DNA of 50,490 nucleotides from Gammaproteobacteria bacterium (GCA_003137095.1 PLET01000104.1:1-50490), one strand, 5' to 3'; counted from the stretch's first letter, positions 27,272 to 50,490 are shown. Numbers and translations: made by a program. The notes: generated from the sequence alone by a model not told the origin.

Positions 27272-27278
27272 GTCGCGC

Positions 27279-28021: not shown

Positions 28022-29632
28022 TCATGCGGGTGTTTCGACATGCGGGCAAAGGCCGAGCTCGAGCGCACCGGGATTCATGAGATCGTGCGGATCGAGCGCG
28101 CGCTTGACGGACCGCACCAGGGCCAACGCCTCGGGCGCCAGCACGCTGCCGTAGGGGTAGACCTTGCCGAGCTGGAAATGCACGGCCTGATGGCGGCTGT
28201 ACAGGGCCACCAGATCACGCTTCAGGGCATCGACGCACGCCGCCGCGGCTGCGTCGTGCGCACGCTGCGGCAGGGAGGCGAGATAGCCGGCCGGCAGGGC
28301 GTGCCGGTGGTAGGCGGACTGCGCCCCGGGCCAGTAGAACGCGAGCTCATACAAGAACGCCGTCGTTCCCATGGTCATGAACATGCCGCCGCACCACACG
28401 CCCAGAGCCTGCATCTCGGCGCGGCGCGACAACAGTAATTCGTCCACCGCGCGGTGAAACTCCGCAACCCGCGAGTGCGGGATGTAGCCATGCAGGGGCA
28501 CCCAGCGTTCGCCGTCGGGACCGAGGGTGTTGAACAGCGGCGCGAACGGCTTGGAGCGCACGATGGCCGGCACCGTATTGGCGATCGGTGCGCCGCCGGC
28601 TGCGCGCAGCAGCTCGTTCAGGCGCCGGCACTTGATGCGTGCGCCGCGCGGTGCGAATCCCTCCAGGATGAAATGTGCGGAGTAGGGCGCGGCGCCGAGG
28701 CGGCGCGAACCCGCGAGGGCGGTGCTGATCAACTGCTTGAGGGCGGCGAACGGCGTGCCAGCCGATACGGCAAGATCCTTCGCGGTCAGGAACTTGGAGA
28801 TGCGCGCGGCACGCGTGATCTGCCCCTTGGCCAAGGCGGCATCCATGGCGAAATGCTCGTCATCGATGCCTTCGATCGCGGCCGCGCGCAATCCACGGGC
28901 CAGGCTTTCGAGGTCCTGGAAGGCGAAGGACGCGCAGGCGAAGGCCGGCAGGCGCCTGCGCAAGGCCAGGGTGATCCGCGCTTTCACGCCGAACACGCCG
29001 CAATCGCCGGTGAACAGGCCGGCCAGATCCGGTCCGTACCAGCGCGAGTACGGGGCTGCGCCGCGGGCCGCGGCGCCGGTGCGCAGCAGGCCGCCGTCTG
29101 CGGCGACCACCTCCAGGCTGATCACGGATTGGGCGCTGATGCCGTAGGCGCCTGATCCGTGGCTGATCGAGTGCTGGGATACCGATCCGCCGACGGTCGC
29201 CGCAATGCCGGAGAAGGGTCCAAAAAACGGCGTGCGCCAGCCGCGCGGATCGAGCGCGGCCTTGAGCGCGGCCCAGGTGACTCCGGCCTCCACGGTGACG
29301 TACGCGTCGGTTTCGTTGATCTCCACGATGCGGTCGAGTCCGCCCATGTCGATCAGTATCGAATCGGGCCGCGCCGGCAGATAGCCGTCGGTGTAGGAGG
29401 CGCCTCCGCCGCGGGTGTACACGGCGATGCCGGCCGACGTCGCGGTGCGTACCGCGGCCTGCAGTGCCTCGACGCTTGCGGGCCGTACCACCGCGAGCGG
29501 CAGTTCGCGGGACCGATACACGTCGGTGGCGAACCCGGCGACCGCCCCGCCCGTCAGCACATTGGCTGCGCCCACTGCGCCGATCAGACGCTTGGTGAAG
29601 TTCTCATCGGCGGCCGGTCGCAGCATATCCAC
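28022..29632 (-). CDS. FAD-linked oxidase/dehydrogenase (GlcD/VAO-type)
   Basis: A 536-residue flavoenzyme of the vanillyl-alcohol-oxidase/GlcD class. The PP-loop region is VVRPASVEALQAAVRTATSAG, followed by the FAD contact TRGGGASYTDGY and GIAATVGGSVSQHSISHGSGAYG, and a C-terminal substrate-binding half. Typical reactions are oxidation of 2-hydroxy acids or phenolic alcohols, or reductive steps in lactate, glycolate or alkylglycerone metabolism; the substrate is open. Start choice is GTG at 29632 or ATG at 29626; neither has a clear ribosome-binding site. It is divergent from the IclR regulator at 29.8 kb, with two inverted repeats in between, and so is a candidate target of that regulator. 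Confidence 0.88.
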   Translation of the reverse strand: MDMLRPAADENFTKRLIGAVGAANVLTGGAVAGFATDVYRSRELPLAVVRPASVEALQAAVRTATSAGIAVYTRGGGASYTDGYLPARPDSILIDMGGLDRIVEINETDAYVTVEAGVTWAALKAALDPRGWRTPFFGPFSGIAATVGGSVSQHSISHGSGAYGISAQSVISLEVVAADGGLLRTGAAARGAAPYSRWYGPDLAGLFTGDCGVFGVKARITLALRRRLPAFACASFAFQDLESLARGLRAAAIEGIDDEHFAMDAALAKGQITRAARISKFLTAKDLAVSAGTPFAALKQLISTALAGSRRLGAAPYSAHFILEGFAPRGARIKCRRLNELLRAAGGAPIANTVPAIVRSKPFAPLFNTLGPDGERWVPLHGYIPHSRVAEFHRAVDELLLSRRAEMQALGVWCGGMFMTMGTTAFLYELAFYWPGAQSAYHRHALPAGYLASLPQRAHDAAAAACVDALKRDLVALYSRHQAVHFQLGKVYPYGSVLAPEALALVRSVKRALDPHDLMNPGALELGLCPHVETPA

Positions 29633-29658
29633 TGCTTTATACGACGTTGATTTTCATT

Positions 29659-29778
29659 GCGCCATGGATTCCTGGCGCGAATTGACCGCTATCCGGAAAC
29701 TGGCCACTTAGCGGCCAAGCGACAGGCCCTTTGAATCGGCTGCATTTACACTAGAGCCATAATCCGGGTATGGCGCCA
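29659..29778 (+). promoter_or_regulatory. Divergent control region with repeated GCGCCA/TGGCGC half-sites
   Basis: An inverted repeat, GCGCCA (29659-29664) and TGGCGC (29673-29678) with an 8-base spacer, lies in the gap between the FAD oxidase and the IclR gene. A second repeat, TGGCC/GGCCA (29701-29717), follows. A palindromic TGGCGCCA (29771-29778), which contains both half-sites overlapped, sits just before the IclR start codon. CATAAT (29758-29763) is a possible -10. IclR proteins bind such pseudo-palindromes near divergent promoters, so this could control both neighbours. Confidence 0.4.
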
Positions 29779-29780
29779 AC

Positions 29781-30599
29781 ATGCACTTCAATCGTTCCCT
29801 CGGCCGCGGTCTGAAGATACTCGCAATCCTCAATGCGGGCGGGGAACACCGCGTGGCGTCCCTGGCGCGGGACGTGAAGCTGCCGAGAAGCACGGCGTTC
29901 AGGCTGTTGTGCACCCTGGTCGAAGAGGGCTATGTGCGGCGGGATCCGGCCACCGACATCTACCATCCGACCGCGCTGGTCATGGCGCTGTCGGACGGAT
30001 TCGACGCGACGGCGCGTCTGGTGCAGGTCGCCCGGCCCCAGGTGACCGCCCTCGGCAAACAACTGGTCTGGCCGGTGATGCTCGCGACGCTGTCGGGCAC
30101 CTCCGTGCTGCTGCGGCAGACCACCGATTCGACCAGCCCCCTTGCCGTGGTCAGATACACGGCCGGGTATCGGGCCCCGGTTCTCGACCGCGCTTCCGGG
30201 CAGGTGCTCCTGGCATTCAGCAGCAAACACCAGCGCCAGATGGTATTGGACCTGCTGTATCGCGATGACGCCGCCAAGGATCAGCCGATCGCGCGCTCGG
30301 AAATCGAGTCGCGACTCGCGGAGATCCGCGCGCTCGGCTACGCCTGCATGCACGGGCCGCGGCACGCATCGGCGCGCAACAGCCTGGCCGTTCCGGTGCA
30401 GGCGGGCGAGGATACGCTCGCGGTGCTCGTGGTGCGCTTCGCGCGCAGCGCGGTCCGGCAGCAGACCGTCATGGAGCAATTTCTGCCCGCCCTGCGCGGC
30501 GCGGCGCACGCCATCGTGGAGGCCTTCCATCGCCCCGGTGCGCAGCCCGCAGAAAGCCCGGGGGCGCAGCGCGATGGAAAAATCCGAAGTCTGACGTGA
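29781..30599 (+). CDS. IclR-family transcriptional regulator
   Basis: A 272-residue regulator. The winged helix-turn-helix occupies about residues 5-65 (RGLKILAILNAGGEHRVASLA, then KLPRSTAFRLLCTLVEEGYV). The effector-binding domain has the IclR features RAPVLDRASGQVLLAFSS and IRALGYACMHGPRHASARNSLAVPV. It begins the coupled plus-strand unit: its stop overlaps the amidohydrolase GTG by 4 bases (GTGA). It probably senses a pathway intermediate and controls this unit plus the divergent FAD oxidase. There is no strong ribosome-binding site ahead of its ATG. Confidence 0.92.
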   Translation: MHFNRSLGRGLKILAILNAGGEHRVASLARDVKLPRSTAFRLLCTLVEEGYVRRDPATDIYHPTALVMALSDGFDATARLVQVARPQVTALGKQLVWPVMLATLSGTSVLLRQTTDSTSPLAVVRYTAGYRAPVLDRASGQVLLAFSSKHQRQMVLDLLYRDDAAKDQPIARSEIESRLAEIRALGYACMHGPRHASARNSLAVPVQAGEDTLAVLVVRFARSAVRQQTVMEQFLPALRGAAHAIVEAFHRPGAQPAESPGAQRDGKIRSLT

Positions 30600-32065
30600 C
30601 CGAGCCTCCCTACGACCTGCTGATCAAGAACCTCAGGATCGTCCGACCGCGCATCAGCGGCGTGCGGCCGCAGGACGTCGCGATAGCCGGCGGAAAGTTC
30701 GTGCGCGTGGACGACTCGATCGCAGCCGACAGCGCCAAACAGGTGGTCGATGCGCAAGGCCTGCTGGGCTTTCCCGGTCTGGTGGATGCCCACATGCACA
30801 CGGGCATCTATTCCCCCCTGGCCGAGGATGCGCTGACCGAGAGCCGGGCGGCGGCGCAGGGCGGAGTGACCTCGAGCCTGAATTATTTCCGCTCGGGTCA
30901 GTACTACCTCAACAAGGGCGGACCGTACGAGACGTTCCTTCCCGAGGTGCTCGACATCTCCGCGGGGCGATTCTACGTCGATTACGCCTATCACCTGGCG
31001 CCCATGGACAGCCGCCAGATCTCCGAGATCGACATGCTGGTGGAGAGATTCGGCGTCACCTCCTTCAAGATCTACATGTTCTACGGCGGCTACGGCCTGC
31101 ACGGCGCATCGAGCCACCAGCACGATTTCCTGATGATCGATCCGGCCGAAAAATACGACATCGCGCACTTCGAGTTCGTGATGCGCGGCGTGAAGCGCGC
31201 GATGGAGCGCTTCGCGGACCGGCGGCAGTACATCAGCCTCAGCCTGCATTGCGAAACCGCGGAGATCATGGCGGCCTACACGAAAATCGTGCAGCAGGAG
31301 GGCCGGCTGTCCGGCCTGCGCGCCTACAGTGCCGCGCGCCCCGCGCACTCCGAGGGGCTGGCGATCGCGATCGCCGCGTATCTCGCCCATGAGACCGAGT
31401 GCGTGAACATCAATCTGCTGCACTTGAGTTCGCGCAAGGCGGTGGAGGCGGCGCTCACCATGGCCAGGGCCTTCCCACACGTCGACTTCCGCCGCGAGGT
31501 GACTTGCGCGCACCTGTGCATCGATTACGACGTCGCCACCGGCTCGCTCGCCAAGGTCAATCCGCCGATCCGCTCGCGCGAGGATGTCGAGTACCTGTGG
31601 TCGGCGCTGCTCGACGGCCACATCGACTGGGTGTGCAGCGATCACGCCTGCTGCCGCCATGAGATGAAGATCGACGGCGGCCGGCCGGACGACATCTTCG
31701 CGGCCAAATCCGGGTTCGGCGGCACGGAGTATCTGCTATCCGGATTGATGACCGAGGGGCGCAGGCGCGGCCTGTCCTACAACCGCATGGCCGAACTCAC
31801 CGCCTGGAATCCCGCGCAGCGGTTCGGCTTGCCGAGCAAGGGCGACATTGCCCCCGGCTACGATGCCGATCTGGCGATCGTCGATCCACGGATTTCCTTC
31901 GTCGTGCGCTCGGCTGAATCCGAATCGGCGCAGGGATATTCACCCTTCGAGGGGCTCGAGCTCGAGGGCAAGGTCGTCACCACGTATCTGCGCGGCGCGG
32001 CGGTCTTCGCCGACGGACGCATCGTCGGCGAACCACGCGGCCGCTATTTGCAGCGGCCGTACTGA
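30596..32065 (+). CDS. Cyclic amidohydrolase (dihydropyrimidinase/allantoinase-like)
   Basis: A 489-residue metal-dependent amidohydrolase of the hydantoinase class with a complete dinuclear site: His66/His68 (DAHMHTG), the carboxylatable bridge Lys158 (SFKIYMF), His218 (SLHCETAE), His276 (LLHLSSRKA) and Asp349 (CSDHACC). These enzymes open cyclic amides, imides or ureides such as hydantoin, dihydropyrimidine or allantoin. The sequence does not say which ring is the substrate. The GTG start overlaps the IclR stop. It is followed after 9 bases by the reductase gene, whose GAGGA ribosome-binding site overlaps this gene's stop. Confidence 0.9.
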   Translation: MTEPPYDLLIKNLRIVRPRISGVRPQDVAIAGGKFVRVDDSIAADSAKQVVDAQGLLGFPGLVDAHMHTGIYSPLAEDALTESRAAAQGGVTSSLNYFRSGQYYLNKGGPYETFLPEVLDISAGRFYVDYAYHLAPMDSRQISEIDMLVERFGVTSFKIYMFYGGYGLHGASSHQHDFLMIDPAEKYDIAHFEFVMRGVKRAMERFADRRQYISLSLHCETAEIMAAYTKIVQQEGRLSGLRAYSAARPAHSEGLAIAIAAYLAHETECVNINLLHLSSRKAVEAALTMARAFPHVDFRREVTCAHLCIDYDVATGSLAKVNPPIRSREDVEYLWSALLDGHIDWVCSDHACCRHEMKIDGGRPDDIFAAKSGFGGTEYLLSGLMTEGRRRGLSYNRMAELTAWNPAQRFGLPSKGDIAPGYDADLAIVDPRISFVVRSAESESAQGYSPFEGLELEGKVVTTYLRGAAVFADGRIVGEPRGRYLQRPY

Positions 32066-32074
32066 GGACTCACC

Positions 32075-33085
32075 ATGCCGGAAAACGCCCGAATCCTGTA
32101 CGCGCGCGCCGCGCGCGGACTGCCGGTCACCGAGGATTTTGCCGCGGATTCCGCACCCCTGCGTCAGCCGGAAGACGGACAGCTGCTGGTGCGAAACATC
32201 TACCTCGCACTCGAGCCGTACTATCGCAACGTCATGAAGGGCATGCCGATGTACGGTGCCGCGCTGAAGCCCGGCGACGTCATGTACGGCGAGACCGTTG
32301 CACAGGTCATCGACAGCCGCCATGCCGGCTTCAGCGCAGGCGATCATGTACTGGGGCGCGGCGGCTGGCAGCAGTTTGCCGTGCTCGAGGGCGCGGGGGC
32401 GCGCAAGCTCGACCCGGCGGAGCTGCCGTTGAGCACCGCGCTCGGCGTGCTGGGCACCCCGGGATTGACCGGCTTCGTGGGCATGGTGTATCTCGCGCCG
32501 CCACGCCCGGGCCAGACCGTGGTGGTGTCGGCGGCCACCGGTCCGGTGGGTTCCACGGCCGGCCAGACGGCGCGCCTGATGGGCGCCCGGGTGGTCGGCA
32601 TCGCCGGATCCACCGAGAAATGCGCGTACGCGGTGCGCGAACTCGGCTACGCCGATTGCGTCAATTACAAGACCGAGGATCTGAAAGCCGCGCTCAAGCG
32701 CACCTGTCCCGACGGCATCGACGTGTATTTCGACAATGTCGGCGGCGACACCCTTGCGGCAGTACTGGCCAATCTCGCGCTGCATGCGCAGGTGGTGCTG
32801 TGCGGCATGATCGGCGCCTACAATGCGGATGCTCCGCCCGTCGGCCCGCATCTCGGTCCGGTGGTGATCGCGCGCGCCACCTTGAAGGGTCTGGTGGTGT
32901 TCGATCATTTCAACCGGCTGCCGGAACTCAGGAAGGTGGTCGGCACCTGGATCAAGGAGGGCAAGTTCCATTACCGCGAGGATCTCGCCCCGACGCTCGA
33001 TGCGGCGCCGGCGGCCTTCTGCCGGTTGATGCGCGGCGAGAACTTCGGCAAGAGCCTGGTGCGCATCGCCGCGGAGCACGCATGA
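32075..33085 (+). CDS. Zinc-free medium-chain reductase (alkenal/one oxidoreductase-like)
   Basis: A 336-residue NAD(P)H-dependent MDR protein of the prostaglandin/leukotriene reductase and CurA branch, shown by the N-terminal LEPYYRNVMKGMPMYGAALKP-like segment and the cofactor loop SAATGPVGSTAGQTARLMGA. It has no structural-zinc cysteine set. Such enzymes reduce alpha,beta-unsaturated ketones, aldehydes or CoA-like carbonyls. Its stop overlaps the start of the next gene (ATGA). In context it may reduce a double bond produced in the pathway. Confidence 0.9.
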   Translation: MPENARILYARAARGLPVTEDFAADSAPLRQPEDGQLLVRNIYLALEPYYRNVMKGMPMYGAALKPGDVMYGETVAQVIDSRHAGFSAGDHVLGRGGWQQFAVLEGAGARKLDPAELPLSTALGVLGTPGLTGFVGMVYLAPPRPGQTVVVSAATGPVGSTAGQTARLMGARVVGIAGSTEKCAYAVRELGYADCVNYKTEDLKAALKRTCPDGIDVYFDNVGGDTLAAVLANLALHAQVVLCGMIGAYNADAPPVGPHLGPVVIARATLKGLVVFDHFNRLPELRKVVGTWIKEGKFHYREDLAPTLDAAPAAFCRLMRGENFGKSLVRIAAEHA

Positions 33086-33387
33086 GCACGATCGTGGTGC
33101 TCTTCAATCTGAAGTCCGGCGTCGAGGCCGAAGCCTACGAGGCATGGGCGCGCGAGCGGGATCTGCCCAACGTCAATGCGCTGCCGTCGGTGCGCGGCTT
33201 TCGCGTGCTGCGCTCGCAGGGACTGCTCAACCGGGCCGCATCGCCGTATCAATACGTCGAACTCATCGAATTGCACTCCCTCGAGGATTTTCGCAGCGAC
33301 GTGAAGTCCGAGGTGATGCAGGGCGTCGCGCGCGAGTTCCGCGCATTCGCCGATGCGCCGCTGTTCATCGTCACCGGGTCCCTGTGA
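33082..33387 (+). CDS. REDY-like/HapK-type small dimeric alpha-beta barrel protein
   Basis: A 101-residue protein with the ferredoxin-like fold common in EthD/REDY-type families. It has AWARERDLPNVNALPSVRGF (the REDY-like region), YQYVELIELHSLEDFRSD and a C-terminal FADAPLFIVTGSL. The function of most members is unknown; relatives include small cyclases or monooxygenase-like proteins of polyketide and aromatic pathways. It overlaps both neighbours by 4 bases (ATGA and GTGA), so its amount is tied to that of the reductase and the SDR. Confidence 0.72.
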   Translation: MSTIVVLFNLKSGVEAEAYEAWARERDLPNVNALPSVRGFRVLRSQGLLNRAASPYQYVELIELHSLEDFRSDVKSEVMQGVAREFRAFADAPLFIVTGSL

Positions 33388-34220
33388 GCGTGCGCTTCGC
33401 AGGCAAGGTGGCGCTGTGCACGGGCTCGGGCCGCCGCGCCGGGCTGGGAGCGGCCATACTGCAGGCCCTGGCCGCGGAAGGATGCAAGGTGGTGTTCACG
33501 GACATGCTCGATCCCCAGGCCGAGCTGACCTCCGCCAACATCGCCAGCCGCAATGAGATGCAGGGCTTGGTCGGGGAGATCCGCGCCGCCGGCGGCGAGG
33601 CGATCGGGCTGCCGCTCGACGTGCGCGACGAAGTCCAGGTCGAGGCGGCGATCGCCGCGGCGGTTTCGCAGCTGGGTCGGTTGGATTTCCTGATCAACAA
33701 TGCCGGCGTGGGATTTCTGATCGAGCCGCTGATCGGCACGTCGAAGCAGCGCTGGCAGACGGTGATGGAGGTGAATTTGACGGGCGCCTTTCTCTGCACG
33801 AAACATGCGGCCAGGCAGATGATCCACCAGGGCGGGGGCGGCCGCATCGTCAACATCGCCAGCCAGGCCGCCAAGAGCGGCCACCTGCACATGGCGGCAT
33901 ACACCGCTTCCAAGCACGGCATGGTCGGATTGACCCGTGCCGCCGCGATCGAACTCGGACCCCACGGCATCACGGTGAATGCCATCTGCCCGAACCACGT
34001 CACCACTGGCCTCGGGGAGGTGCAGAACCAATATTTCTCGCAGCTGCGGGGCTTCGAATCCGTGGAGGAGTATCTGAAGGACATGAAGGGACGCATCCCG
34101 TTGCGCCGCGTCGGCCTGCCCGCCGACACGGCGCAGGCTTGTGCATTTCTGTGCAGCGACGCGGCGGCCTACGTCACGGGGGAGGCGATGAACGTCAGTG
34201 GTGGAATGGAGATGCATTGA
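33384..34220 (+). CDS. Short-chain dehydrogenase/reductase (SDR)
   Basis: A 278-residue classical SDR. The cofactor turn is CTGSGRRAGLGAAIL, a TGxxxGxG variant with two extra residues. It has the NNAG motif and a catalytic Tyr-x3-Lys in AAYTASKHG, with a Ser in NIASQAAKSG. It oxidises or reduces a hydroxy or keto group with NAD(P)H; the cofactor and substrate are unknown. Start may be this GTG, which overlaps the HapK-like stop, or the next GTG 6 bases on. Its stop overlaps the ATG of the small protein (TGATG). Confidence 0.9.
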   Translation: MSVRFAGKVALCTGSGRRAGLGAAILQALAAEGCKVVFTDMLDPQAELTSANIASRNEMQGLVGEIRAAGGEAIGLPLDVRDEVQVEAAIAAAVSQLGRLDFLINNAGVGFLIEPLIGTSKQRWQTVMEVNLTGAFLCTKHAARQMIHQGGGGRIVNIASQAAKSGHLHMAAYTASKHGMVGLTRAAAIELGPHGITVNAICPNHVTTGLGEVQNQYFSQLRGFESVEEYLKDMKGRIPLRRVGLPADTAQACAFLCSDAAAYVTGEAMNVSGGMEMH

Positions 34221-34582
34221 TGGCCCCAAAGAAAGCCGGGAAAACCAGGTCGGCCGAGACGAGCACGTCAACCGCCGGGGCTTTGCGCCTGCCGCGCATC
34301 AGCAATGGCGTCAGGCCGGAGTTCTACGACGATCCGGCCATCGATCAGCTGTTCGCGATCGTCACCGCGCTCACCGGCGAATTGTCGGTGGTGAGCGACC
34401 GGCTGGACACCCTGGAGCGCGCCTTGGTGAAGGGCCGGTCACTCGAATCGGGTGCCGTCGAAGCATTCGTCCCGGATGCCGACGCCGTCGATCAGCGTGC
34501 GCGGCGCCGCGAGGAATTGCTCGGCCGCGTCTTTGCGGTGTTCGAGGTCTACGCGGCCCACCGGCGGCCCGGCGCGAGGTGA
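34220..34582 (+). CDS. Conserved-looking 120-residue protein of unknown function
   Basis: I do not recognise a named family. The basic N-terminus (APKKAGKTRSAETSTSTAG) is followed by a central NGVRPEFYDDPAIDQLFAIV, a helical stretch with heptad-like spacing (ALTGELSVVSDRLDTLERAL), and a charged C-terminus (RARRREELLGRVFAVFEVYAAHR). There is no signal peptide or metal motif. It overlaps the SDR before it and the flavoprotein after it by 1 and 4 bases, which suggests a stoichiometric partner, such as an assembly or interaction subunit for the TMADH-type flavoprotein, in a coiled-coil form. That role is inferred from gene order alone. Confidence 0.7.
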   Translation: MAPKKAGKTRSAETSTSTAGALRLPRISNGVRPEFYDDPAIDQLFAIVTALTGELSVVSDRLDTLERALVKGRSLESGAVEAFVPDADAVDQRARRREELLGRVFAVFEVYAAHRRPGAR

Positions 34583-36585: not shown

Positions 36586-36624
36586 GGCGGTCGCGGCGCG
36601 AGCAGCGGCGCGCCCACCCTGGAT

Positions 36625-37830: not shown

Positions 37831-37855
37831 GGCCTAGCTCCTCCTGCAGTTGCAA

Positions 37856-42034: not shown

Positions 42035-42116
42035 GTTCGAAGCGCGCCATGGGCATGCCATGACCCTATGCCGGGCCGCGATCCCATCGCCAGGAGGCTG
42101 CGTACCATCGGCCGCT

Positions 42117-42157
42117 GGTTGGCCATGACCGAGCCGGCAGCCATCAGCCGGTCAACC
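42117..42157. promoter_or_regulatory. Possible operator between leuC-like and hydrolase genes
   Basis: GGTTGGCC (42117-42124) and GGTCAACC (42150-42157) form an 8-bp inverted repeat with one mismatch and a 25-base spacer. It sits within the divergent promoter region of the leuC-like and alpha/beta hydrolase genes, so an IclR regulator might use it. The evidence is position and symmetry only; no promoter hexamers are convincing in this 172-base gap. Confidence 0.22.
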
Positions 42158-42206
42158 CCCCGGCCGGCGCGGGATCCGCTGCCGGCAAGTTCCTAGAATT
42201 CCCGCC

Positions 42207-43052: not shown

Positions 43053-43074
43053 CCGGGGCCGGGCACCGATGCGG

Positions 43075-43893
43075 TCAGGCGCGGCGGTTCGGAATTGGCG
43101 GCACGGCAGGCGCCTTGTCAGCGGCGCGCAACTGGCGTTCGATCCGGCCGGCCAGATCCCGCAAGGTGGCGAGCTTCTTTTGCAAGCCCTCGGCTCCGCC
43201 GGCGGAAATGCGCATGTAGCGCAGCGTCAGGGTGCCGATCAGCATGCCCTTCAGGCGCAGCGGCACGGCCACGGTATTTTCGCGTTCGCCGAGCGGCTCG
43301 TAGGTCGAAAAATCCTGCCGCCGGATCCGGTCGAGCTCGCGGGTCAGTTCCGCCGGCGTGTTTGGTTTGCCGTACGGCGGCGGCGGCAACTTTTGTTGAA
43401 TCGCGAGGATGGAGCCTTGGGTCTCCGGGGCGAGATTGCTCAGACACAAGAGCCCCGCCGCGGAATACAGCATGGAAGCATAGCCTCCGGCCCGATAACG
43501 GCGGATCACCCGGCTGGTCGCGTGGTCGGTGTTGAATCGCACGATGCAGCGATCGCCCACCGGGGTGACCAGCGCCAGCGGCCAGCCGTGCAATGCGGTC
43601 GATTCGAGCATCAGCGGCTGGGCGGCCGCCAGGAGGCGCACATCGCCGTCGAAACCATCCGACAAGCCACGGGCCAGCACGGTCAGTCGATAGCGCGCGC
43701 CGCGCCGGCGCGGGCCCTCGACCACGTAGCCCAACTCATTCAGTGTTTTAAGAACCCGATAGGCCGCGGCGCGCGACAGCCCGAGAACGGCGGCCAGTTC
43801 CCCCGATGAGAGGGACTCGCGGCTGTTCATCAGGCGGAGCGCTTCGATGCCGATGCGCAGGGATTGAATGTCATCGGCTTCTCTTGCCTGCAT
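43075..43893 (-). CDS. IclR-family transcriptional regulator (second)
   Basis: A 272-residue IclR protein with a helix-turn-helix (ALRLMNSRESLSSGELAAVL, then LSRAAAYRVLKTLNELGYVV) and an effector domain containing RYRAGGYASMLYSAAGLLCL. It stands back to back with a third IclR gene with only 42 bases between start codons, and is convergent with the alpha/beta hydrolase. Paired divergent IclR genes suggest cross-regulation. Its target may include the hydrolase or the LeuC-to-methyltransferase unit; this cannot be read from the sequence. Confidence 0.9.
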   Translation of the reverse strand: MQAREADDIQSLRIGIEALRLMNSRESLSSGELAAVLGLSRAAAYRVLKTLNELGYVVEGPRRRGARYRLTVLARGLSDGFDGDVRLLAAAQPLMLESTALHGWPLALVTPVGDRCIVRFNTDHATSRVIRRYRAGGYASMLYSAAGLLCLSNLAPETQGSILAIQQKLPPPPYGKPNTPAELTRELDRIRRQDFSTYEPLGERENTVAVPLRLKGMLIGTLTLRYMRISAGGAEGLQKKLATLRDLAGRIERQLRAADKAPAVPPIPNRRA

Positions 43894-43935
43894 GGCGCGT
43901 ATAGTATCGCAACACCGAGGGATGTCGCCGAACCC

Positions 43936-44763
43936 GTGGATATCATCACCGAATTTGAAGCCTCCAACGACGCCGCGGCGGTGTCATCGCTGCCGCCGGC
44001 CAACAAGGCGTCGCGCGAGCGACTGCAGGCCCTGGAGCGCGGCCTCGAAGCGCTGTCGCTGCTCAACCGCTTCGGCGCCGGCACCAGCACCCAGGTGGCA
44101 AAGGCTCTGGGCCTGAAGCGCTCCACCGCGCACCGCATTCTCGGTGTGCTGGTCAAATTGGGCTTGCTGCGCCATGACGCGTTCAATCACCAGTACATCC
44201 TGTGCGAGCGCGTCAGCGAATTGTCCAGCGGGTATCACGATGACCCGTGGGTGACGGCCTGCGCCGTGCCGCTGATGATGGCCTGGACGCGGGAGCACCA
44301 CTGGCCGCTGGTACTGACGACGCCGCTCGCCGGCCGGCTGGTGGTGAGGGCATCCACGGATTACGAGAGCCCGATGTCGGTGGACCGTTTCCATGGTGGA
44401 CAGGTGATTCCGGTGGAGGGTTCGACGGCGGGAATGCTGTATTTGGCCTTTGCGGGTGAATCTCCTCCGCCGCTCATCCTGCGCCGCAAGGGACCCCGGG
44501 ACGAGCTGGAGTGGGCCGCTCCGGAGGAACTCGCCCGCATCCGGGCGAGCGGTTACGTCGCGCGGCCGACGGCCTGTTTCACGGGCGCGCGGATCAGTGT
44601 GCCCTTGAGTCTCGAGCGGCCCTTCATCGGCTGCATCACCATGCGCTGTCGCGCGGAGAACATCGAACTCATCAGTGAAGTCGACGCCTGGGTGGCATCG
44701 CTGCGCCGGGTGGCCCGGCTCATCGGTACCGAATTGAAGAAAAATCCGCCGCCGGCCGATTAG
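43936..44763 (+). CDS. IclR-family transcriptional regulator (third)
   Basis: A 275-residue IclR protein from this GTG, with an N-terminal acidic leader, the helix-turn-helix (QALERGLEALSLLNRFGAG, LGLKRSTAHRILGVLVKLG) and the effector domain (VPVEGSTAGMLYLAFAG-like VIPVEGSTAGML, ASGYVARPTACFTGARISVPL). A TATAGT hexamer (43900-43905) in the 42-base divergent gap is a likely -10. An in-frame TTG further upstream would overlap the divergent gene. The stop codon overlaps the convergent amidase stop. The tandem of three IclR genes in 14 kb is notable. Confidence 0.87.
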   Translation: MDIITEFEASNDAAAVSSLPPANKASRERLQALERGLEALSLLNRFGAGTSTQVAKALGLKRSTAHRILGVLVKLGLLRHDAFNHQYILCERVSELSSGYHDDPWVTACAVPLMMAWTREHHWPLVLTTPLAGRLVVRASTDYESPMSVDRFHGGQVIPVEGSTAGMLYLAFAGESPPPLILRRKGPRDELEWAAPEELARIRASGYVARPTACFTGARISVPLSLERPFIGCITMRCRAENIELISEVDAWVASLRRVARLIGTELKKNPPPAD

Positions 44764-46094
44764 GGCGGCGACCCGCCGAGCCGCTCCCGGATGGAGGCGG
44801 CCAGGGCCAGCAGCCGCAGGTCCTCGCCGGCGCGGCCGATCAATTGCAAATTCACAGGCCGGCCGCCGGCGATCGCCTGCGGCCACGAGACCGCCGGCAG
44901 CCCCGCGATGTTGGCCGGCGCCACGAAGGCGGCAATCGAACGCGGCAGATCATCCCGCGCATCGACCGCCTCGACCGGGCAGGTCGGCGTCAGGATGGCG
45001 TCCGCGTCATCCAGGCCGCGGCGCATGCGGTGCGCAGCGTCGATCAGGATTGCGCGTCCTGCCTGCAGCCTGGACGCCGGCAACGAGGCGGCGCGCTCCA
45101 GCAGCCGGCGCAGTTCGGCACCGAGCCGGCCCGGGTTTGCGAGCGGTGTTGCCCCCGTTTTCAGCCGTGCGGCAAAATCGCCCGCGACCTCCCAGAGCGC
45201 GGCACGCGACACCTCCGCAAAATCGACTGCCGGAAACTCGCGCAGGCGCAACGCCGGCGTGCCGCCGAGCGCGGCCACGCAGCGGCGATACGCCTGCGCC
45301 ACGGGGCCGTCCGCCGCGGTGAGCGCCGCATCGCCGAGGAACAGCAGCAGACCGCGCGCCGGCGCCGCCGGCGCCGGGTCGAGCAGCGCGGCGGCGGCCA
45401 GTGCGACATCCGCCAACGAGCCGGCGAGCAGGCCCAGCGTGTCGAAGCGCGGATACAGGGGCGCGACGCCCCGCATCGGCAGGCCATCGTGAGTGGGTTT
45501 GAATCCGACGATGCCGCACAGTGCCGCGGGGATGCGCACCGAACCCAGGGTGTCGGTGCCGACCCCGAGAAGCGCATGACCGGCTGCGACCGCGGCCGCC
45601 GAGCCGCTGCTCGAGCCGCCGGTCAGCATTCGTCGATCTCGCGGATTCACACAACGGCCGAAATGCTCATTGCGACCACTCGCCCCGAGCGCCGCCTCAT
45701 CGAGATGGGTCTTGCCGATCAGGATGGCGCCGGCCTGCCGCAGCCGGGCCGCGATGGCCGAGTCCTCTGCGGCGGGCGGGCGTGCGAGGGCCACGCTGCC
45801 GCAGGAGGTGGTGACGCCCCGCAGGTCGATGTTGTCCTTGACCGCCACCGGTACACCGAGCAGCGGGCAGGGCGCGCCGGACACAGCGCCCGCCAGCTGC
45901 CGGTCGAGCCGCCCGGCCTGCGCCAACGCCTGCTCCTCCAACAGGCAGGTGTAAATACGGTCGGTCGGGTTGCGGCCGATGGCGTTCGACAACAGCCTGT
46001 GCATCTGCATCGCCGCCGGCTCATGCGGCAGGCGCCAGTTCGCGAGCAGGGCCGCGATGCCGGACGACTCGATCAAGGTGGACGACTCGCTCAA
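44760..46094 (-). CDS. Amidase-signature family amidohydrolase
   Basis: A 444-residue amidase with the Ser-cisSer-Lys triad: Lys86 in VAVKDNIDLRG, the cis-Ser within LTGGSSSGSAAA (about 161-163) and nucleophile Ser185 in GTDTLGSVRIPAA. The usual Gly before Gly-Ser is Leu183, a small departure from GTDTGGS. It hydrolyses an amide to acid and ammonia and may release nitrogen from the ring-opened intermediate of the nearby amidohydrolase or NodB-like enzyme. The start is a TTG without a clear ribosome-binding site; a later ATG at 46010 is possible. Divergent from the NodB-like gene. Confidence 0.88.
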   Translation of the reverse strand: MSESSTLIESSGIAALLANWRLPHEPAAMQMHRLLSNAIGRNPTDRIYTCLLEEQALAQAGRLDRQLAGAVSGAPCPLLGVPVAVKDNIDLRGVTTSCGSVALARPPAAEDSAIAARLRQAGAILIGKTHLDEAALGASGRNEHFGRCVNPRDRRMLTGGSSSGSAAAVAAGHALLGVGTDTLGSVRIPAALCGIVGFKPTHDGLPMRGVAPLYPRFDTLGLLAGSLADVALAAAALLDPAPAAPARGLLLFLGDAALTAADGPVAQAYRRCVAALGGTPALRLREFPAVDFAEVSRAALWEVAGDFAARLKTGATPLANPGRLGAELRRLLERAASLPASRLQAGRAILIDAAHRMRRGLDDADAILTPTCPVEAVDARDDLPRSIAAFVAPANIAGLPAVSWPQAIAGGRPVNLQLIGRAGEDLRLLALAASIRERLGGSPP

Positions 46095-46213
46095 GATCGG
46101 GGACTGTATACCAGCCGGCCCGGCGCGCCGCGGCGCACCGCGGATGCGCCCGCATTTCGGACAGTTGCGGAGTTGTCACCGTGAATTCTTGGGCATCTCC
46201 GTACACTGCAAAA

Positions 46214-47110
46214 ATGCCTGCGGCCATCCCCATTGCCGATCCTGCTCCGCGCGAGTGGGGGCCCGGTGCCCGACTTGCGGTGTCCCTCGTCATCAACGTG
46301 GAGGAGGGCGCGGAGATGTCGGTCGCCCGCGGCGATGCCACCATGGAGCCCGTCGATGAGTTCGGCATGTTCGCCAGGGAGCCGCTGCGCAATCTCGCCA
46401 ATGAGAGCAATTATCGCTACGGTCTGACCCAGGGTGCGCCGCGCGTGGCGAGGCTGCTGCGTGAACGGCACATGCAGGCAACCTGGACCTGCGCCGCCGA
46501 AGCGCTCGAAGCGGCACCGCAGGTCGCCGAGCTCATCGTCGAGGGCGGACACGAGGTGTGCGCACACGGTCATCGCTGGATTTCGCAATTGAAAATGGAC
46601 GAGACCACCGAGCGGGACTTCATCGCCAGCGCGCGCGACTCGATCGCGCGTACAACCGGACGGCGACCGGCCGGATGGCTGTCGAGATATTACACCACGC
46701 TCAATACCCGTCGGCTCCTGGCCGAATCCGGTTTTACTTATCACATGGATGATTTCTCCGACGATGTGCCGTTCTGGGATGCAACACATTCGCGGCCCAT
46801 CCTGGTGATTCCCTACCAGCTCGACACCAACGACATGAAGATGTGGGCCCATCCGTCCTATACGCCGGACCAGTGGCTGAAATACGCCTGCGACACCTTC
46901 GACTGGCTGCTGCAGGAAACACGGGAACTCGCCCGGCCGCGCATCATGTCCCTGGGGGTCCATCTGCGCATCATCGGGCGCCCCGGCCGCATCGGCGCGC
47001 TGCGCTCGTTTCTCGACCGCGTCGCCTCGGTGAAAGATGCCGCCGTGCTCACCCGCCTGCAGATCGCGGCGGCCTGCCAAATGAATCAACCCAGGGAGAC
47101 CGCAGCATGA
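46214..47110 (+). CDS. Polysaccharide-deacetylase-fold hydrolase (PuuE/imidase-like)
   Basis: A 298-residue NodB-fold protein. Its metal region reads LVINVEEGAE, where classical members have Asp-Asp, and the His pair lies in GGHEVCAHGHRW, close to the PuuE-type allantoinase pattern. The middle keeps the GWLSRYYTTLNTRRLLAESGF segment typical of PuuE-like proteins. The fold includes chitin deacetylases, allantoinase PuuE and cyclic imide hydrolases; with the other nitrogen-related genes, a ring-amide or imide substrate is plausible. The ATG at 46214 sits just 6 bases past a TACACT box, which would make it almost leaderless; a GTG at 46181 is an alternative. Its stop overlaps the AllA-like ATG. 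Confidence 0.82.
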   Translation: MPAAIPIADPAPREWGPGARLAVSLVINVEEGAEMSVARGDATMEPVDEFGMFAREPLRNLANESNYRYGLTQGAPRVARLLRERHMQATWTCAAEALEAAPQVAELIVEGGHEVCAHGHRWISQLKMDETTERDFIASARDSIARTTGRRPAGWLSRYYTTLNTRRLLAESGFTYHMDDFSDDVPFWDATHSRPILVIPYQLDTNDMKMWAHPSYTPDQWLKYACDTFDWLLQETRELARPRIMSLGVHLRIIGRPGRIGALRSFLDRVASVKDAAVLTRLQIAAACQMNQPRETAA

Positions 47111-47739
47111 ATTCAGCCATCGCCGATCAGCCCATCTGCAAATTGGTGCCGGTGGTGCCGGCCACCGCGGCCGCGCTCGCCCCCTACGGCTATCTGATCG
47201 GGCCGCCCGACACCGAGGTCAAGGGCCGCATCGACTATTACGGCAATGACGTCCAGGTACGGACCCCGGCGAAATTCGTGTCGAACAACGACATGATGCT
47301 GAATCTGGTCACCTTCAACCGCCGCGCGCCGGTGATCCGCTGGATGGAATATCACATCAAACACACCCAGACCTTCATTCCGCTCGCGGGCCGGCCCTTC
47401 ATCATGGTGCTCGGCATCCCCACCCATCGGCGCGCCGACGGCGGCGTCGATGCCGCGCGGCCGGATCTGCCGGATCTGTCGACTGTACGGGGATTCTACT
47501 TCGACGGATCGGCGGGAATTTGCATGCACATCGGCACGTGGCACGAAGTGCCGTTTCCGATCCTAGATCAGACCAATTTTGTGGCGATCGTGACCAACGA
47601 GACCAACCGCAATCTCGAGGAACACGACGAGAATTTCGAGAGCGAGGGCGGCGATCTGGTCAAGCGGCAGCTGGTCAGACGCTTGAACACCCAGCTGGAG
47701 ATCGACCTGTCGGGAGTGCCCGGCGCGAAGACCGGTTGA
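47107..47739 (+). CDS. Ureidoglycolate lyase (AllA-fold)-like protein, second copy
   Basis: A 210-residue AllA-like protein, more typical than the one at 10.9 kb. It has the substrate-entry MEYHIKHTQTFIPLAGRPFIMVL segment, then GFYFDGSAGICMHIGTWHEVPFPI with the IHxGxWH signature, and a C-terminal ETNRNLEEHDENFESEGGDLV. AllA enzymes work as dimers that cleave ureidoglycolate-type compounds without metal. It overlaps the NodB-like gene (ATGA) and is 4 bases from the BKACE gene. The tight unit suggests a specific substrate in this catabolic route rather than purine breakdown. Confidence 0.85.
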   Translation: MNSAIADQPICKLVPVVPATAAALAPYGYLIGPPDTEVKGRIDYYGNDVQVRTPAKFVSNNDMMLNLVTFNRRAPVIRWMEYHIKHTQTFIPLAGRPFIMVLGIPTHRRADGGVDAARPDLPDLSTVRGFYFDGSAGICMHIGTWHEVPFPILDQTNFVAIVTNETNRNLEEHDENFESEGGDLVKRQLVRRLNTQLEIDLSGVPGAKTG

Positions 47740-47743
47740 TGCC

Positions 47744-48625
47744 ATGAGCAGAAAAGTCATGTTGACCTGCGCCGTGACCGGCGCCGGTTCGACCACGAAG
47801 AAACACCCCGGGGTACCGGTGACCCCGAAGCAGATCGCCGCTGCCTGTCTGCAGGCCGCCAAGGCGGGATGTTCGGCCGTGCACGTGCACGTGCGCGACC
47901 CGGCGACCGGCGAGGGCGGCCGCGACCCCGCGCATTTTCGCGAGGTGGTCGCACGCATCCGCGAGTCCGGCGTCGACATCGTCCTCAATCTGACCTGCGG
48001 CATGGGCGGCCGCCTGGTCCTGGACGATGACGATCCGTCCGTCATGGCGCCCGGCACCGACCTCGCCCGACCCGAGGAGCGCATGCAGCACGTCGAGGAA
48101 CTGCTGCCTGAGATCTGCACCCTCGACTGCGGCAGCATGAACTTCGGCCGCGAAGTGGTGATCAACCGGGTCGGTGATCTGGAACGCATGGCCCGCGTGG
48201 CGCAGCGCCTCGGCGTGAAGCCCGAGCTCGAGGTGTTCGATTTCGGCCAGATCGGCATCGCGCGGCAGTTGATCGACGGCGGACTGATCGACGGCACGCC
48301 GTTGTTTCAGCTGTGCCTGGGGATTGCGGGCGGCACCCCGGCCACCACCGGTGCGATGCTGGCGCTGCGTGACGCGCTGCCGGGCGGCGCCCACTGGGGC
48401 GCCTTCGGCATTTCGAAATCCGAATTCCCGATGGTGGCGCAGGCGGCGCTGCTCGGCGGAAATGTCCGGGTCGGCCTGGAGGACAATCTGTACCTGGAAG
48501 CCGGACGCCTCGCCACGAACGGCGAGCTGGTCGACAAGGCGCTGCAGATATTGAGCCTGTTGGGCGTGGCCGCCATGAGTCCCGCCGAGACGCGCACCGC
48601 ACTCGGCTTGCGGCGGCATCACTAG
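47744..48625 (+). CDS. BKACE (DUF849) beta-keto acid cleavage enzyme
   Basis: A 293-residue TIM-barrel enzyme of the BKACE family, whose founding member Kce cleaves 3-keto-5-aminohexanoate with acetyl-CoA. The metal site is kept: His47 and His49 in AVHVHVRD and Glu227 in SKSEFPM. The family condenses a beta-keto acid with acetyl-CoA to give a CoA ester and acetoacetate. The residues that select the keto acid's side chain cannot be assigned by eye, so the substrate is open. It sits in one unit with NodB-like, AllA-like, crotonase and acyl-CoA dehydrogenase genes. Confidence 0.92.
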   Translation: MSRKVMLTCAVTGAGSTTKKHPGVPVTPKQIAAACLQAAKAGCSAVHVHVRDPATGEGGRDPAHFREVVARIRESGVDIVLNLTCGMGGRLVLDDDDPSVMAPGTDLARPEERMQHVEELLPEICTLDCGSMNFGREVVINRVGDLERMARVAQRLGVKPELEVFDFGQIGIARQLIDGGLIDGTPLFQLCLGIAGGTPATTGAMLALRDALPGGAHWGAFGISKSEFPMVAQAALLGGNVRVGLEDNLYLEAGRLATNGELVDKALQILSLLGVAAMSPAETRTALGLRRHH

Positions 48626-48638
48626 TCCGGAATCCCCG

Positions 48639-49415
48639 ATGGCCAGCGGTTTATCCCTTTCGATCGACGGCGGCGTCGCACGGCTTCGCCTGACGCGGCC
48701 TCAGGCGCGCAACTCCCTGACCCAGGCGGTGTGCAGCGCCCTGTGCGAGGCGCTCACGGCACTCGCACGGGACCCCGCGTGTCGGATCCTGGTGGTGGAA
48801 GGCAGCGGCGGTTCGTTTGCCAGCGGCGCGGACATCGCCGAACTCGACCGCCTGCGCGGCGATCCCCCGCAGCTCATCGCCATGTACCGGCTGCTGCGAG
48901 AGACCCAGGAACTGCTGTATGGCCTGCCGCGGCCCACCATCGCCCTGATCGACGGCTTTTGCCTGGGCGCGGGTCTGAGCATCGCGCTGGCTTGCGATCT
49001 GCGGCTGGCGGCCACGCGCAGCGTGTTTGCCGCCTCGCCCTGCCGCATCGGGCTTCTCTACAGCGACAGCGAGGTGCGGCGACTGGCGATGCGGATCGGT
49101 ACGGCCGGGACGCGCGATCTGCTGTTCACGGGACGGCGCATTTTCGGCGCGGAGGCGCTGCGGCTGGGTCTCATCGAGCGCCTGTCGGAGCCCGGGGAAC
49201 TTGAAGAGTCCCTGACCGAGCTGGTGGGCCAGATTGATTCGTGTTCGCAGGCCTCGCTGCACAAGACGAAACAGCAGCTGTTGCGACTGGAGACCGCCGG
49301 CGGCGGCGTGAGGCGCGACGATGCCGAGGCGGAGGCCGCATTTTTCGAGGCGGACGCCGCCGAAGGTTTCGCGGCCTTCCTACAGCGGCGCAGCCCGCGG
49401 TTTCCGGGCCGATGA
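48639..49415 (+). CDS. Crotonase-superfamily protein lacking both catalytic Glu
   Basis: A 258-residue crotonase with the oxyanion strands EGSGGSFASGADIAEL and GFCLGAGLSIALACDLRLA. The two glutamates of enoyl-CoA hydratase are not present: the first position reads GAGLSIAL (Ser) and the second FAASPCRIG (Pro). It should therefore not be assumed to hydrate a double bond; an isomerase, decarboxylase, thioesterase or C-C hydrolase role of this superfamily is possible. It starts 13 bases after the BKACE gene, and its stop overlaps the dehydrogenase ATG (ATGA). Confidence 0.88.
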   Translation: MASGLSLSIDGGVARLRLTRPQARNSLTQAVCSALCEALTALARDPACRILVVEGSGGSFASGADIAELDRLRGDPPQLIAMYRLLRETQELLYGLPRPTIALIDGFCLGAGLSIALACDLRLAATRSVFAASPCRIGLLYSDSEVRRLAMRIGTAGTRDLLFTGRRIFGAEALRLGLIERLSEPGELEESLTELVGQIDSCSQASLHKTKQQLLRLETAGGGVRRDDAEAEAAFFEADAAEGFAAFLQRRSPRFPGR

Positions 49416-50490
49416 CGGCCGATGACCCCGCCACCGCGGATATCCGCGACTCGGTGCGCGCACTGTGCACGCGCTTTCCGGGCGCGTACTGGCGCGAACT
49501 CGACCGGTCCCGCGGCTATCCCACGCAATTCGTGGCCGAATTGACCGCCGCCGGATTCCTGGCGGCGCTGATCCCGGAAGAGTACGGCGGCAGCGGACTC
49601 GGGCTGAGCGCGGCGGCGGCGGTGCTCGAGGAGATTCACGCGAGCGGCGGCAACGGCGGCGCCTGCCACGCGCAGATGTACATGATGGGAACCCTGCTGC
49701 GGCACGGATCCGGGGCGCAGAAGCGCTCGTGGCTGCCGCAGATTGCGCGCGGCGAAATCCGGCTGCAGGCGTTCGGTGTCACCGAACCGAGCAGCGGCAG
49801 CGATACCCTGGCGCTGCGGACCACGGCGGTTCCCGATGGTGATCACTACATCATCAACGGCCAGAAGATCTGGACCTCGCGTGCCGAGCATTCGGATCTG
49901 ATGCTGCTGCTGGCGCGCACCACCCCGGCGGACCAGGTGAAGAAGCGCACGGAAGGACTGTCCGTGCTCTTGATCGACATGCGCGAGGCGCTCGGCAGGG
50001 GCCTGACCATCCGTCCGATCCGCACCATGATGAATCACTCGACCACCGAGGTGTTCTTCGAGAATCTGCGGGTGCCGTCAGGTGCCCTGGTCGGGGAACC
50101 GGGCCGGGGCTTTCATTACATCCTGGACGGCATGAATGCGGAACGGACCTTGATCGCCGCCGAATGCGTGGGCGATGGCCGCTGGTTCATCGAGAAGGCA
50201 GCCGCTTACGCCCGCGAACGCCGGGTTTTCGGCCGGCCCATCGGCCAGAATCAGGGGATCCAGTTCCCGATTTCCCGCGCCTACGCAGCGGTTCGTGCGG
50301 CGGCGCTCGCCGTGTCGCATGCGGCGCAGCGCTTCGAGTCCGGCGCGCGGATCGGCGAGGAGGCGAACATCGCCAAGCTGCTCGCATCCGAGGCCTCATG
50401 GCAGGCGGCGGAGGCCTGCGTGCAGACCTTCGGCGGATTCGCCTTCGCCGAGGAATACGACGTCGAGCGCAAATTCCGCGAGACGCGGCT
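49412..50490 (+). CDS. Acyl-CoA dehydrogenase (partial, runs off the window)
   Basis: The first 359 codons of a family member. It shows IPEEYGGSGLGLSAAAAVLEEI, the FAD/substrate contacts AFGVTEPSSGSDTLAL and YIINGQKIWTSRAEHSD, the middle-domain end and helices ERTLIAAECVGDG and RRVFGRPIGQNQGIQFP. The C-terminal helical part, including the usual catalytic glutamate, lies beyond the window edge at 50490. It oxidises an acyl-CoA to the 2-enoyl-CoA with ETF as acceptor. It is the last visible gene of the NodB-to-dehydrogenase unit, and its ATG overlaps the crotonase stop. Confidence 0.92.
   Translation, partial: MTADDPATADIRDSVRALCTRFPGAYWRELDRSRGYPTQFVAELTAAGFLAALIPEEYGGSGLGLSAAAAVLEEIHASGGNGGACHAQMYMMGTLLRHGSGAQKRSWLPQIARGEIRLQAFGVTEPSSGSDTLALRTTAVPDGDHYIINGQKIWTSRAEHSDLMLLLARTTPADQVKKRTEGLSVLLIDMREALGRGLTIRPIRTMMNHSTTEVFFENLRVPSGALVGEPGRGFHYILDGMNAERTLIAAECVGDGRWFIEKAAAYARERRVFGRPIGQNQGIQFPISRAYAAVRAAALAVSHAAQRFESGARIGEEANIAKLLASEASWQAAEACVQTFGGFAFAEEYDVERKFRETR

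Follow-up and report, generated by a model that had tools for sequence, protein, structure and literature searches.

Fermentative nicotinate degradation employs a Mo-hydroxylase, a reductase, an amidohydrolase, an aconitase-type hydratase and a C-C lyase, together with a B12-dependent methyleneglutarate mutase and a methylitaconate isomerase. In the Chloroflexus aurantiacus system, a lyase cleaving 2-alkylmalyl-CoA works with a CoA-transferase, and we know of no amidohydrolase linked to this citramalyl-CoA lyase; the lyase of the itaconate cluster is of the CitE type. Here we describe a gene set in the window, by which we mean the whole 50,490-nt stretch analysed (Gammaproteobacteria bacterium, GCA_003137095.1 PLET01000104.1:1-50490; host genome completeness 91.77%, contamination 4.06%). 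It comprises three compact units, A, B and C. We propose, with a probability of roughly 45%, that units A and B and the transporter gene upstream of them encode one catabolic pathway leading from a cyclic imide or lactam to a 2-oxo acid and an acyl-CoA. The cluster is probably an undescribed combination of known enzyme families, and among the papers listed by searches of the open literature none reports this gene set.

The locus shares with nicotinate fermentation the Mo-hydroxylase, the reductase, the amidohydrolase, the aconitase-type alkylmaleate hydratase and the C-C lyase, and, as a further likeness, some relatives join LeuCD-like subunits with a methylisocitrate-lyase-type enzyme. It differs in having a CoA-transferase, a lyase of the HMG-CoA lyase family (HMGL) and an amidohydrolase of the allantoinase/hydantoinase type (AmidoH). 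The original prediction had drawn this analogy, of which only the logic stands: the mutase and the isomerase are not among the genes scanned between 21 and 50.5 kb, the rest of the genome not having been searched. The window also holds LeuC/LeuD, unlike the C. aurantiacus system, whose (R)-citramalyl-CoA lyase is cited in the relevant passage of PMC3572532. In the portion of PMC12290011 that covers it, the itaconate/methylsuccinate cluster likewise combines a CoA-transferase, a hydratase and a citramalyl-CoA lyase. However, the window lyase is HMGL-type, the free acid is our proposed substrate of LeuC/LeuD and ring-opening enzymes stand in front; the HpcH/CitE and RipB/Ich models matched none of the window proteins scanned, and the itaconate triad of CoA-transferase, Ich-type hydratase and CitE-type lyase is not found here. 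The lumichrome cluster resembles ours in its several hydrolases, a xanthine-oxidase-like enzyme and a final retro-aldol step to pyruvate, but uses a P450, a TPP decarboxylase and a catechol dioxygenase, as far as the excerpts of PMC12746152 go; the terms "isopropylmalate" and "CoA transferase" do not occur in its main text. Riboflavin/lumichrome breakdown, considered since dimethylmaleate chemistry would fit, was thus set aside because the route published there uses other enzymes.

Window proteins were scanned against Pfam and NCBIfam. Gene starts are approximate, those of A4 and A5 being taken from domain limits and overlaps. Units A and B, with the genes flanking them, read as follows.

25991-27271, minus strand: g22, MFS transporter (MFS_1)
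27279-27947, minus strand: g23, membrane protein (weak DUF2269 match, E 0.003, under the cut-off)
28022-29632, minus strand: A0, FAD_binding_4 (FAD4) oxidase or dehydrogenase (Pfam/NCBIfam)
29781-30599, plus strand: A1, IclR regulator (domain scan)
30596-32065, plus strand: A2, AmidoH, hydantoinase/allantoinase-type cyclic amidohydrolase (domain scan, metal ligands)
32075-33085, plus strand: A3, MDR-family reductase, curcumin-reductase-like (domain scan)
33082-33387, plus strand: HapK/EthD-like small protein (PF11639, 48.9 bits)
33384-34220, plus strand: A4, SDR dehydrogenase (domain scan)
34220-34582, plus strand: 120-aa protein (no Pfam match; homologues adjoin a methyltransferase elsewhere)
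34579-36585, plus strand: A5, OYE/TMADH-type flavoenzyme (Oxidored_FMN)
36625-37830, minus strand: B6, methyltransferase, N-terminal part without assignment (domain scan)
37856-39031, minus strand: B5, CaiB-type CoA-transferase (domain scan)
39028-39972, minus strand: B4, HMG-CoA-lyase-family C-C lyase (domain scan, HMGL motifs)
39963-40598, minus strand: B3, LeuD-type small subunit (domain scan)
40595-42061, minus strand: B2, LeuC-type large subunit (domain scan, putative Fe-S cysteines)
42207-43052, plus strand: B1, alpha/beta hydrolase (domain scan)

The order is thus IclR-AmidoH-MDR-HapK-SDR-120-aa protein-OYE in unit A and LeuC-LeuD-HMGL-CaiB-methyltransferase in unit B. Gaps are operon-like, from -4 to +9 bases between A1 and A5 and from -4 to -10 bases between B2 and B5, with B6 starting 25 bases past B5. 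The enzymes named in the original prediction, the three IclR genes included, are borne out by the scans, as is the compactness of its units by this spacing. Its list was incomplete, lacking the FAD_binding_4 oxidase, the alpha/beta hydrolase, the methyltransferase, the HapK-like gene and the 120-aa gene, and its start of the gene set at 28022 lies too far right, since homologues of the MFS transporter and membrane protein genes (25991-27947) recur with the set.

Do units A and B recur together elsewhere? Relatives of AmidoH are encoded on at least 519 stretches in a scan of genome contigs, and the best 80 of these are the AmidoH loci considered here. Homologues at 40% identity or above occur in these loci for CaiB (20), MDR (16), LeuD (10), LeuC (9), the IclR regulator A1 (9, at 42-46%), FAD4 (8), HMGL (6), B1 (5, at 44-50%), A4 (5) and the Mo-hydroxylase gene g20 (1); a g20 homologue of 41% lies near AmidoH in L098 and L200. 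With profile models for LeuC, LeuD, CaiB, three lyase types and others (PrpD- and CitE-type not among them), partners were counted within 7 kb of AmidoH and compared with 20 control stretches, which came from the window's relatives and not from the 80 contigs. LeuC and LeuD were each found in 22 of the 80 loci and in no control, CaiB in 21 against 2 controls, HMGL in 10 against 1, FAD4 in 16 against none, the methylisocitrate-lyase type in 6 and the HpaI type in 5, both against none. One control (L277, genome G033) held methyltransferase, VOC-like, CaiB, HMGL and HyuA genes, which inflates the control counts for these. LeuC/D occurs with CaiB and HMGL in 10 loci, with CaiB and the HpaI type in 4, with the methylisocitrate-lyase type but no CaiB in 4, with CaiB and no lyase in 3 and alone in 2; CaiB alone is seen in 4, a lyase alone in 3 and none of these in 50. 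Contig ends cut 36 of the loci within 7 kb, and among the 44 uncut ones LeuC is present in 15, CaiB in 15, HMGL in 8 and no partner in 26.

The full combination of AmidoH with LeuC-LeuD-HMGL-CaiB is found in Pseudomonadota (L140, L142, L145 from Pseudoxanthomonas yeongjuensis, L163, L217), Bacteroidota (L176, L183, L213) and Chloroflexi (L196, L212). All four loci of the HpaI-type variant are from Marinimicrobia (L157, L159, L162, L170), where HyuA, SDR, HapK-like, HpaI-type, LeuD, LeuC, CaiB and AmidoH genes stand together, and in a member of the Chitinophagaceae (L176) HMGL, LeuC, LeuD, CaiB, AmidoH, HyuA, SDR, HapK-like and HpaI-type genes lie within about 15 kb. CN_hydrolase-family genes are present in 9 of 82 loci, and hydantoinase A/B-type genes in some. 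Protein distances co-vary with those of AmidoH (Mantel tests, 0 in 2000 permutations in every case) for CaiB (r 0.83, 23 loci with the window), HMGL (0.71), LeuD (0.55) and LeuC (0.52). Units A and B form one recurring gene set, beyond chance. The type of lyase varies by lineage, so that the reaction, rather than the gene, seems to be conserved.

A similar linkage emerges among the 147 relatives of the host (148 genomes minus the window's own), where 10 candidates per genome were scored for AmidoH, 15 for HMGL and 6 in another search, so that misses are possible. A relative of AmidoH is present in 28 and a B-type HMGL, defined by at least 58% identity (the next best genome reaches 45%), in 37, with both in 22 (Fisher p 2e-11). 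An A5-type OYE is found in 22, of which 18 carry the B-type HMGL. Ten loci from these OYE-positive genomes contain an A4-type SDR at 65-74% in 6 cases and a B6-type methyltransferase in 5. The flanking genes follow in places: a g22 homologue (46%) adjoins CaiB-HMGL-LeuCD in G062 (L109), a g23 homologue (32%) lies near OYE and methyltransferase genes in G129, homologues of the Mo-hydroxylase gene g19 occur in the HMGL stretches L115 and L138, and in L099 and L132 an A0 homologue adjoins ETF genes. Between the HapK-like and SDR genes of G129 sits a relative of the RipB/Ich itaconyl-CoA hydratase (244 bits, cut-off 340).

Plasmids carry related clusters. Homologues of g22, g23, A0, A4 and B2-B5 occur together on pJE1 of Sphingomonas sp. 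JE1 and pTomTYG65b of Sphingobium sp. TomTYG65, with identities to the window of 51-53% for LeuD, 61% for LeuC, 62% for CaiB, 66-67% for HMGL, 65% for A4 (a gene cut by the stretch edge), 48% for g22, 35% for A0 and 29% for g23; A2 is without a match there. There, LeuD-LeuC-CaiB and HMGL stand beside an isochorismatase-family gene and two polysaccharide-deacetylase-family genes, and both plasmids also carry a second LeuC-LeuD pair and an isocitrate-lyase-family gene. The best PDB matches of the isochorismatase-family protein are 4l07/4l08, which we take to be the maleamate amidase of nicotine breakdown, and N-carbamoylsarcosine amidohydrolases. A 50-kb stretch of Novosphingobium resinovorum pSA1 encodes homologues of HMGL (68%), A0 (48%), the AllA-like protein of unit C (41%), AmidoH (33%), the methyltransferase (three, 37-39%), the 120-aa protein (two, 33-34%) and B1 (29-44%). 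A Rhodococcus plasmid has an AmidoH homologue of 61.6% surrounded by genes for MmgE/PrpD, a CoA ester lyase, a CoA transferase, hydantoinase A/B and an amidase. A Comamonadaceae plasmid bears a row of IclR, an amidohydrolase-family gene, HMGL (61%) and CaiB (56%), in which the amidohydrolase-family protein has no detectable similarity to A2. The co-occurrence elsewhere on which the original prediction was staked is thus seen for parts of units A and B, while unit C is linked more loosely.

Other neighbourhoods were seen as well. Cyanobacterial AmidoH genes (L166, L172, L192, L211 and others) stand beside an Asp/Arg-hydroxylase-family gene, some of them near DUF4437 proteins. A VOC-like (by eye) protein of about 300 aa without Pfam match (L140:3706-4647, L259:8277-9188 and others) lies beside OYE and LeuCD-AmidoH clusters. 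In L096, L099, L132 and related stretches, a variant of the AmidoH cluster includes a haem-oxygenase-like protein, UbiD, a redoxin, ETF subunits and an aldehyde dehydrogenase, and DUF1838 proteins appear in the catabolic neighbourhoods L115, L120 and L169.

What do the protein sequences say about function? Only the HMGL, LeuC and LeuD models reach curated NCBIfam cut-offs, so that the other enzyme names mean relatives only. B4 scores 275 bits (subfamily cut-off 246) and retains the Arg-Asp, HxH and GGCP..GASGN motifs of the HMG-CoA lyase family. LeuC and LeuD both lie above subfamily cut-offs; B3 exceeds the leuD cut-off (171 against 116.25 bits), while B2 falls short of the leuC cut-off (523.8 against 560.25). 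The best PDB match of B2 is an isopropylmalate/citramalate isomerase, and alignment with 4nqy shows that C368, C428 and C431, in the GSCTNGR and GCSLC motifs, are kept; presumably these are Fe-S ligands. AmidoH stays under the cut-off of the allantoinase AllB equivalog (246.6 against 357.85 bits). Aligned to allantoinase 3e74, it keeps the putative metal ligands H66, H68, K158, H218, H276 and D349, which we take to form a binuclear site of HxH, carbamylated Lys, two His and Asp. A3 scores 360.1 bits against the curcumin-reductase-like model (cut-off 440). PDB relatives of A5 are NCR, dienoyl-CoA reductase and histamine dehydrogenase; bilirubin reductase was rejected for A5, which scores 224.9 bits where the cut-off is 750.

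The sequences show the presence of the genes, their operon layout, the conserved catalytic motifs, the recurrence of parts of unit A with unit B across phyla and the change of lyase; every reaction, the substrate and the direction in the following scheme we infer. Uptake would occur via the MFS transporter g22. An N-heterocycle or lactam may be redox-prepared to a cyclic imide by the Mo-hydroxylase g19/g20, A0, the OYE A5, the SDR A4 and the MDR A3. AmidoH would open the ring to a half-amide, from which an amidase (C2 of unit C or another) would remove ammonia to leave a substituted maleate. The LeuC/LeuD pair may hydrate this to an (R)-2-alkylmalate, CaiB would load CoA, and the HMGL-family lyase would split the product into an acyl-CoA and a 2-oxo acid, which would be pyruvate for a methyl substituent. 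The scheme gives no step to the methyltransferase, the 120-aa protein or the HapK-like protein. That the lyase family changes whereas a hydratase, a CoA step and a C-C lyase recur as functions points to an alkylmalate-type intermediate, and a cyclic imide or lactam would suit the several families of cyclic-amide hydrolases and amidases that precede them. According to PMC6689899, S in the citramalyl group is equivalent to R at position 3 in HMG-CoA, and by this match an S-HMG-type lyase would fit R-citramalyl-type substrates. The substrate class named in the original prediction (imide, lactam or N-heterocycle) is consistent with the enzyme types.

Several observations weigh against this pathway. 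The methyltransferase B6 fits nowhere in the scheme. Fifty of the 80 AmidoH loci (24 of them end-cut) lack LeuC, LeuD, CaiB and the three modelled lyases within 7 kb, and 12 of the 13 cyanobacterial loci are without any modelled partner; AmidoH thus has other contexts or partners too. No clear enrichment over controls is seen for HyuA (2/80 against 1/20), the methyltransferase (4 against 1), VOC-like genes (5 against 1) or SDR (31/80 against 4/20, with an A4 model that is unspecific), and HapK (4/80 against 0/20) is too rare for judgement. The genomes are related, which makes the Fisher and Mantel figures look more significant than they are. Three of the 28 AmidoH relatives (G036, G055, G071) belong to a group at 51-52% identity, without which the overlap is 20 of 25. 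The aligned members of this group, L135 (G055) and L137 (G036), have lost some of the putative metal ligands (H66 is replaced by N, K158 by Q and D349 by A or N), and on account of this loss the group may be inactive or do something else. The NodB-type proteins of the pJE1 and pTomTYG65b clusters are only 25-32% identical to the PuuE-like C3 of unit C. C3 itself matches the allantoinase PuuE better, at 187.9 bits, than it matches 3qbu, at 58.8 bits, the latter being the structure to which PMC9304392 relates the fungal imide hydrolase HxnM.

The remaining genes scanned are the possible upstream members and unit C.

22529-25166, plus strand: g19/g20, Mo-hydroxylase small and large subunits (possible upstream member, membership uncertain)
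25167-25976, after the Mo-hydroxylase genes: g21 (sub-threshold FAS1-like dehydratase match; no NCBIfam match)
43075-43893, minus strand: C0, IclR regulator (HTH part only)
43864-44763, plus strand: C1, IclR regulator (HTH part only)
44760-46094, minus strand: C2, amidase, proposed half-amidase (domain scan)
46181-47110, plus strand: C3, PuuE-like NodB-fold hydrolase, proposed second cyclic-imide hydrolase (domain scan)
47107-47739, plus strand: C4, AllA-like protein (63.1 bits; Ureidogly_lyase, 64.6 bits)
47744-48625, plus strand: C5, BKACE (domain scan)
48639-49415, plus strand: C6, crotonase-family protein, ECH (domain scan)
49400-50490, plus strand: C7, acyl-CoA dehydrogenase, ACAD (domain scan; runs past the window end)

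By eye, g21 resembles a MaoC-type hydratase. Unit C has the order PuuE-AllA-BKACE-ECH-ACAD with gaps of -16 to +13 bases, the amidase lying on the opposite strand. It may handle a second ring or a further fragment, on which the PuuE-like hydrolase, the amidase and the AllA-like protein, then acyl-CoA dehydrogenase, crotonase and BKACE, would act. Behind a C3 homologue (57.5%) on a Tistrella plasmid come genes for a TRAP transporter, MmgE/PrpD, an acyl-CoA dehydrogenase and a CoA-transferase; the MmgE/PrpD and acyl-CoA dehydrogenase types also belong to the itaconate/methylsuccinate cluster, and methylsuccinate breakdown is assigned to such a pair in the sections of PMC12290011 concerned. By this parallel, unit C may handle the saturated counterpart. 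In G033, MmgE/PrpD and an AMP-binding CoA ligase lie upstream of amidase and PuuE genes.

Does unit C belong to the same pathway at all? It is conceivable, though on balance doubtful, that only A and B form a pathway together and that unit C, a ureide-like or cyclic-amide route of its own, is just their neighbour. Unit C genes are rare in AmidoH loci (C7 in 1 of 80 at 40% or above, the other C genes in none), and among 60 stretches the amidase, PuuE, AllA, BKACE, ECH and ACAD homologues are all together only in G129 (L120), where the C4 homologue (52%) and the C2 homologue (44%) accompany those of C3, C5, C6 and C7. However, PuuE at 54% or above is found in 10 of the 147 relatives, solely in those with the B-type HMGL (10/10). 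Eight of these ten yielded widely read PuuE loci, which hold ECH (7), the B6-type methyltransferase (6), the amidase (4, at 36-37%) and an A4-type SDR (2, at 58-59%). On 4 of the 5 Novosphingobium plasmids, moreover, 39-49 kb separate an AllA-like gene from the B-type HMGL. Canonical purine ureide breakdown was rejected, since C3 is under the curated PuuE cut-off (224.7 against 424.6 bits) and C4 far below the AllA cut-offs.

Could the substrate be a pyridine, degraded as in the fungal HXN pathway by hydroxylation, OYE and SDR action to a piperidine-dione imide, a NodB-type imide hydrolase and an amidase? The enzymes of HXN include an OYE-related reductase, a ketoreductase of the polyol-dehydrogenase type, a cyclic imidase and an amide hydrolase, and, in the part of PMC9304392 that describes it, the route ends at alpha-hydroxyglutarate with no LeuC/LeuD, CaiB or lyase. 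OYE, SDR, PuuE-like and amidase genes are all in the window, with the Mo-hydroxylase upstream, but LeuC/LeuD, CaiB and HMGL would not be needed, C3 is PuuE-like rather than HxnM-like, and a nicotinate-type flavin monooxygenase was not seen among the scanned genes, no dedicated search having been made; we consider this route improbable. Breakdown of a steroidal alkaloid or terpenoid, with the imide arising from the side-chain nitrogen ring, is very improbable: the carriers L165, L186 and L203 are labelled Steroidobacteraceae, yet AmidoH-LeuCD-CaiB clusters also occur in Marinimicrobia, Chloroflexi and Bacteroidota, and steroid-ring genes were not noticed nearby, although no search was aimed at them. 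That B2-B5 serve leucine, isovalerate or itaconate metabolism unconnected to A2 is hardly credible. LeuC/LeuD and HMGL are the standard names there, and LeuD and HMGL do pass their cut-offs, but the same genome has a separate leuC-leuD at contig C24, where leuC adjoins leuD and, by eye, branched-chain biosynthesis genes, and a second HMGL (38%) at C9, and AmidoH recurs with LeuC/LeuD and CaiB genes across phyla. With two further leuC copies, at C24 and C113, B2 is not the only leuC of the genome, and leucine biosynthesis or breakdown is unlikely for B2-B5 because of these separate copies. The pair at C113 (51-53%; L246, 6.8-10 kb) stands beside isopropylmalate-dehydrogenase-like and ABC-transporter-like genes (by eye).

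A bolder version of the imide/lactam pathway seems quite improbable, namely a widespread route for alkylmaleimides from the oxidative breakdown of tetrapyrroles (chlorophyll, haem, bilin). An imide hydrolase and a half-amidase would yield dialkylmaleates, LeuC/LeuD-type hydratases would convert these to dialkylmalates, and CoA-dependent or free lyases would cut the latter to pyruvate and an acyl unit; the NodB-type hydrolases, LeuC/LeuD pairs and lyase types of the plasmid clusters, of each of which there are two, might then serve the two kinds of maleimide.

None of 22 same-genus genomes has AmidoH, the AllA-like gene, the B-type HMGL, the A5-type OYE or PuuE at the levels given above. The left part of the contig (window 1-21000) is also rare in the genus, its S9 peptidase having 1 match above the limit used outside the own genome (71%) and its RND pump matches of only 37-39%. 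The region is likely an accessory island, and the same pattern suggests mis-binning as an alternative.

If the proposed imide/lactam pathway is correct, several bacterial phyla possess a route, masked by names such as dihydroorotase, isopropylmalate dehydratase and HMG-CoA lyase, that opens a cyclic imide or lactam and cleaves the product by way of CoA. Renaming would then correct misleading leucine and pyrimidine annotations. Since Pseudoxanthomonas yeongjuensis DSM 18204 holds a compact version of the cluster (L145), the substrate can be sought directly.

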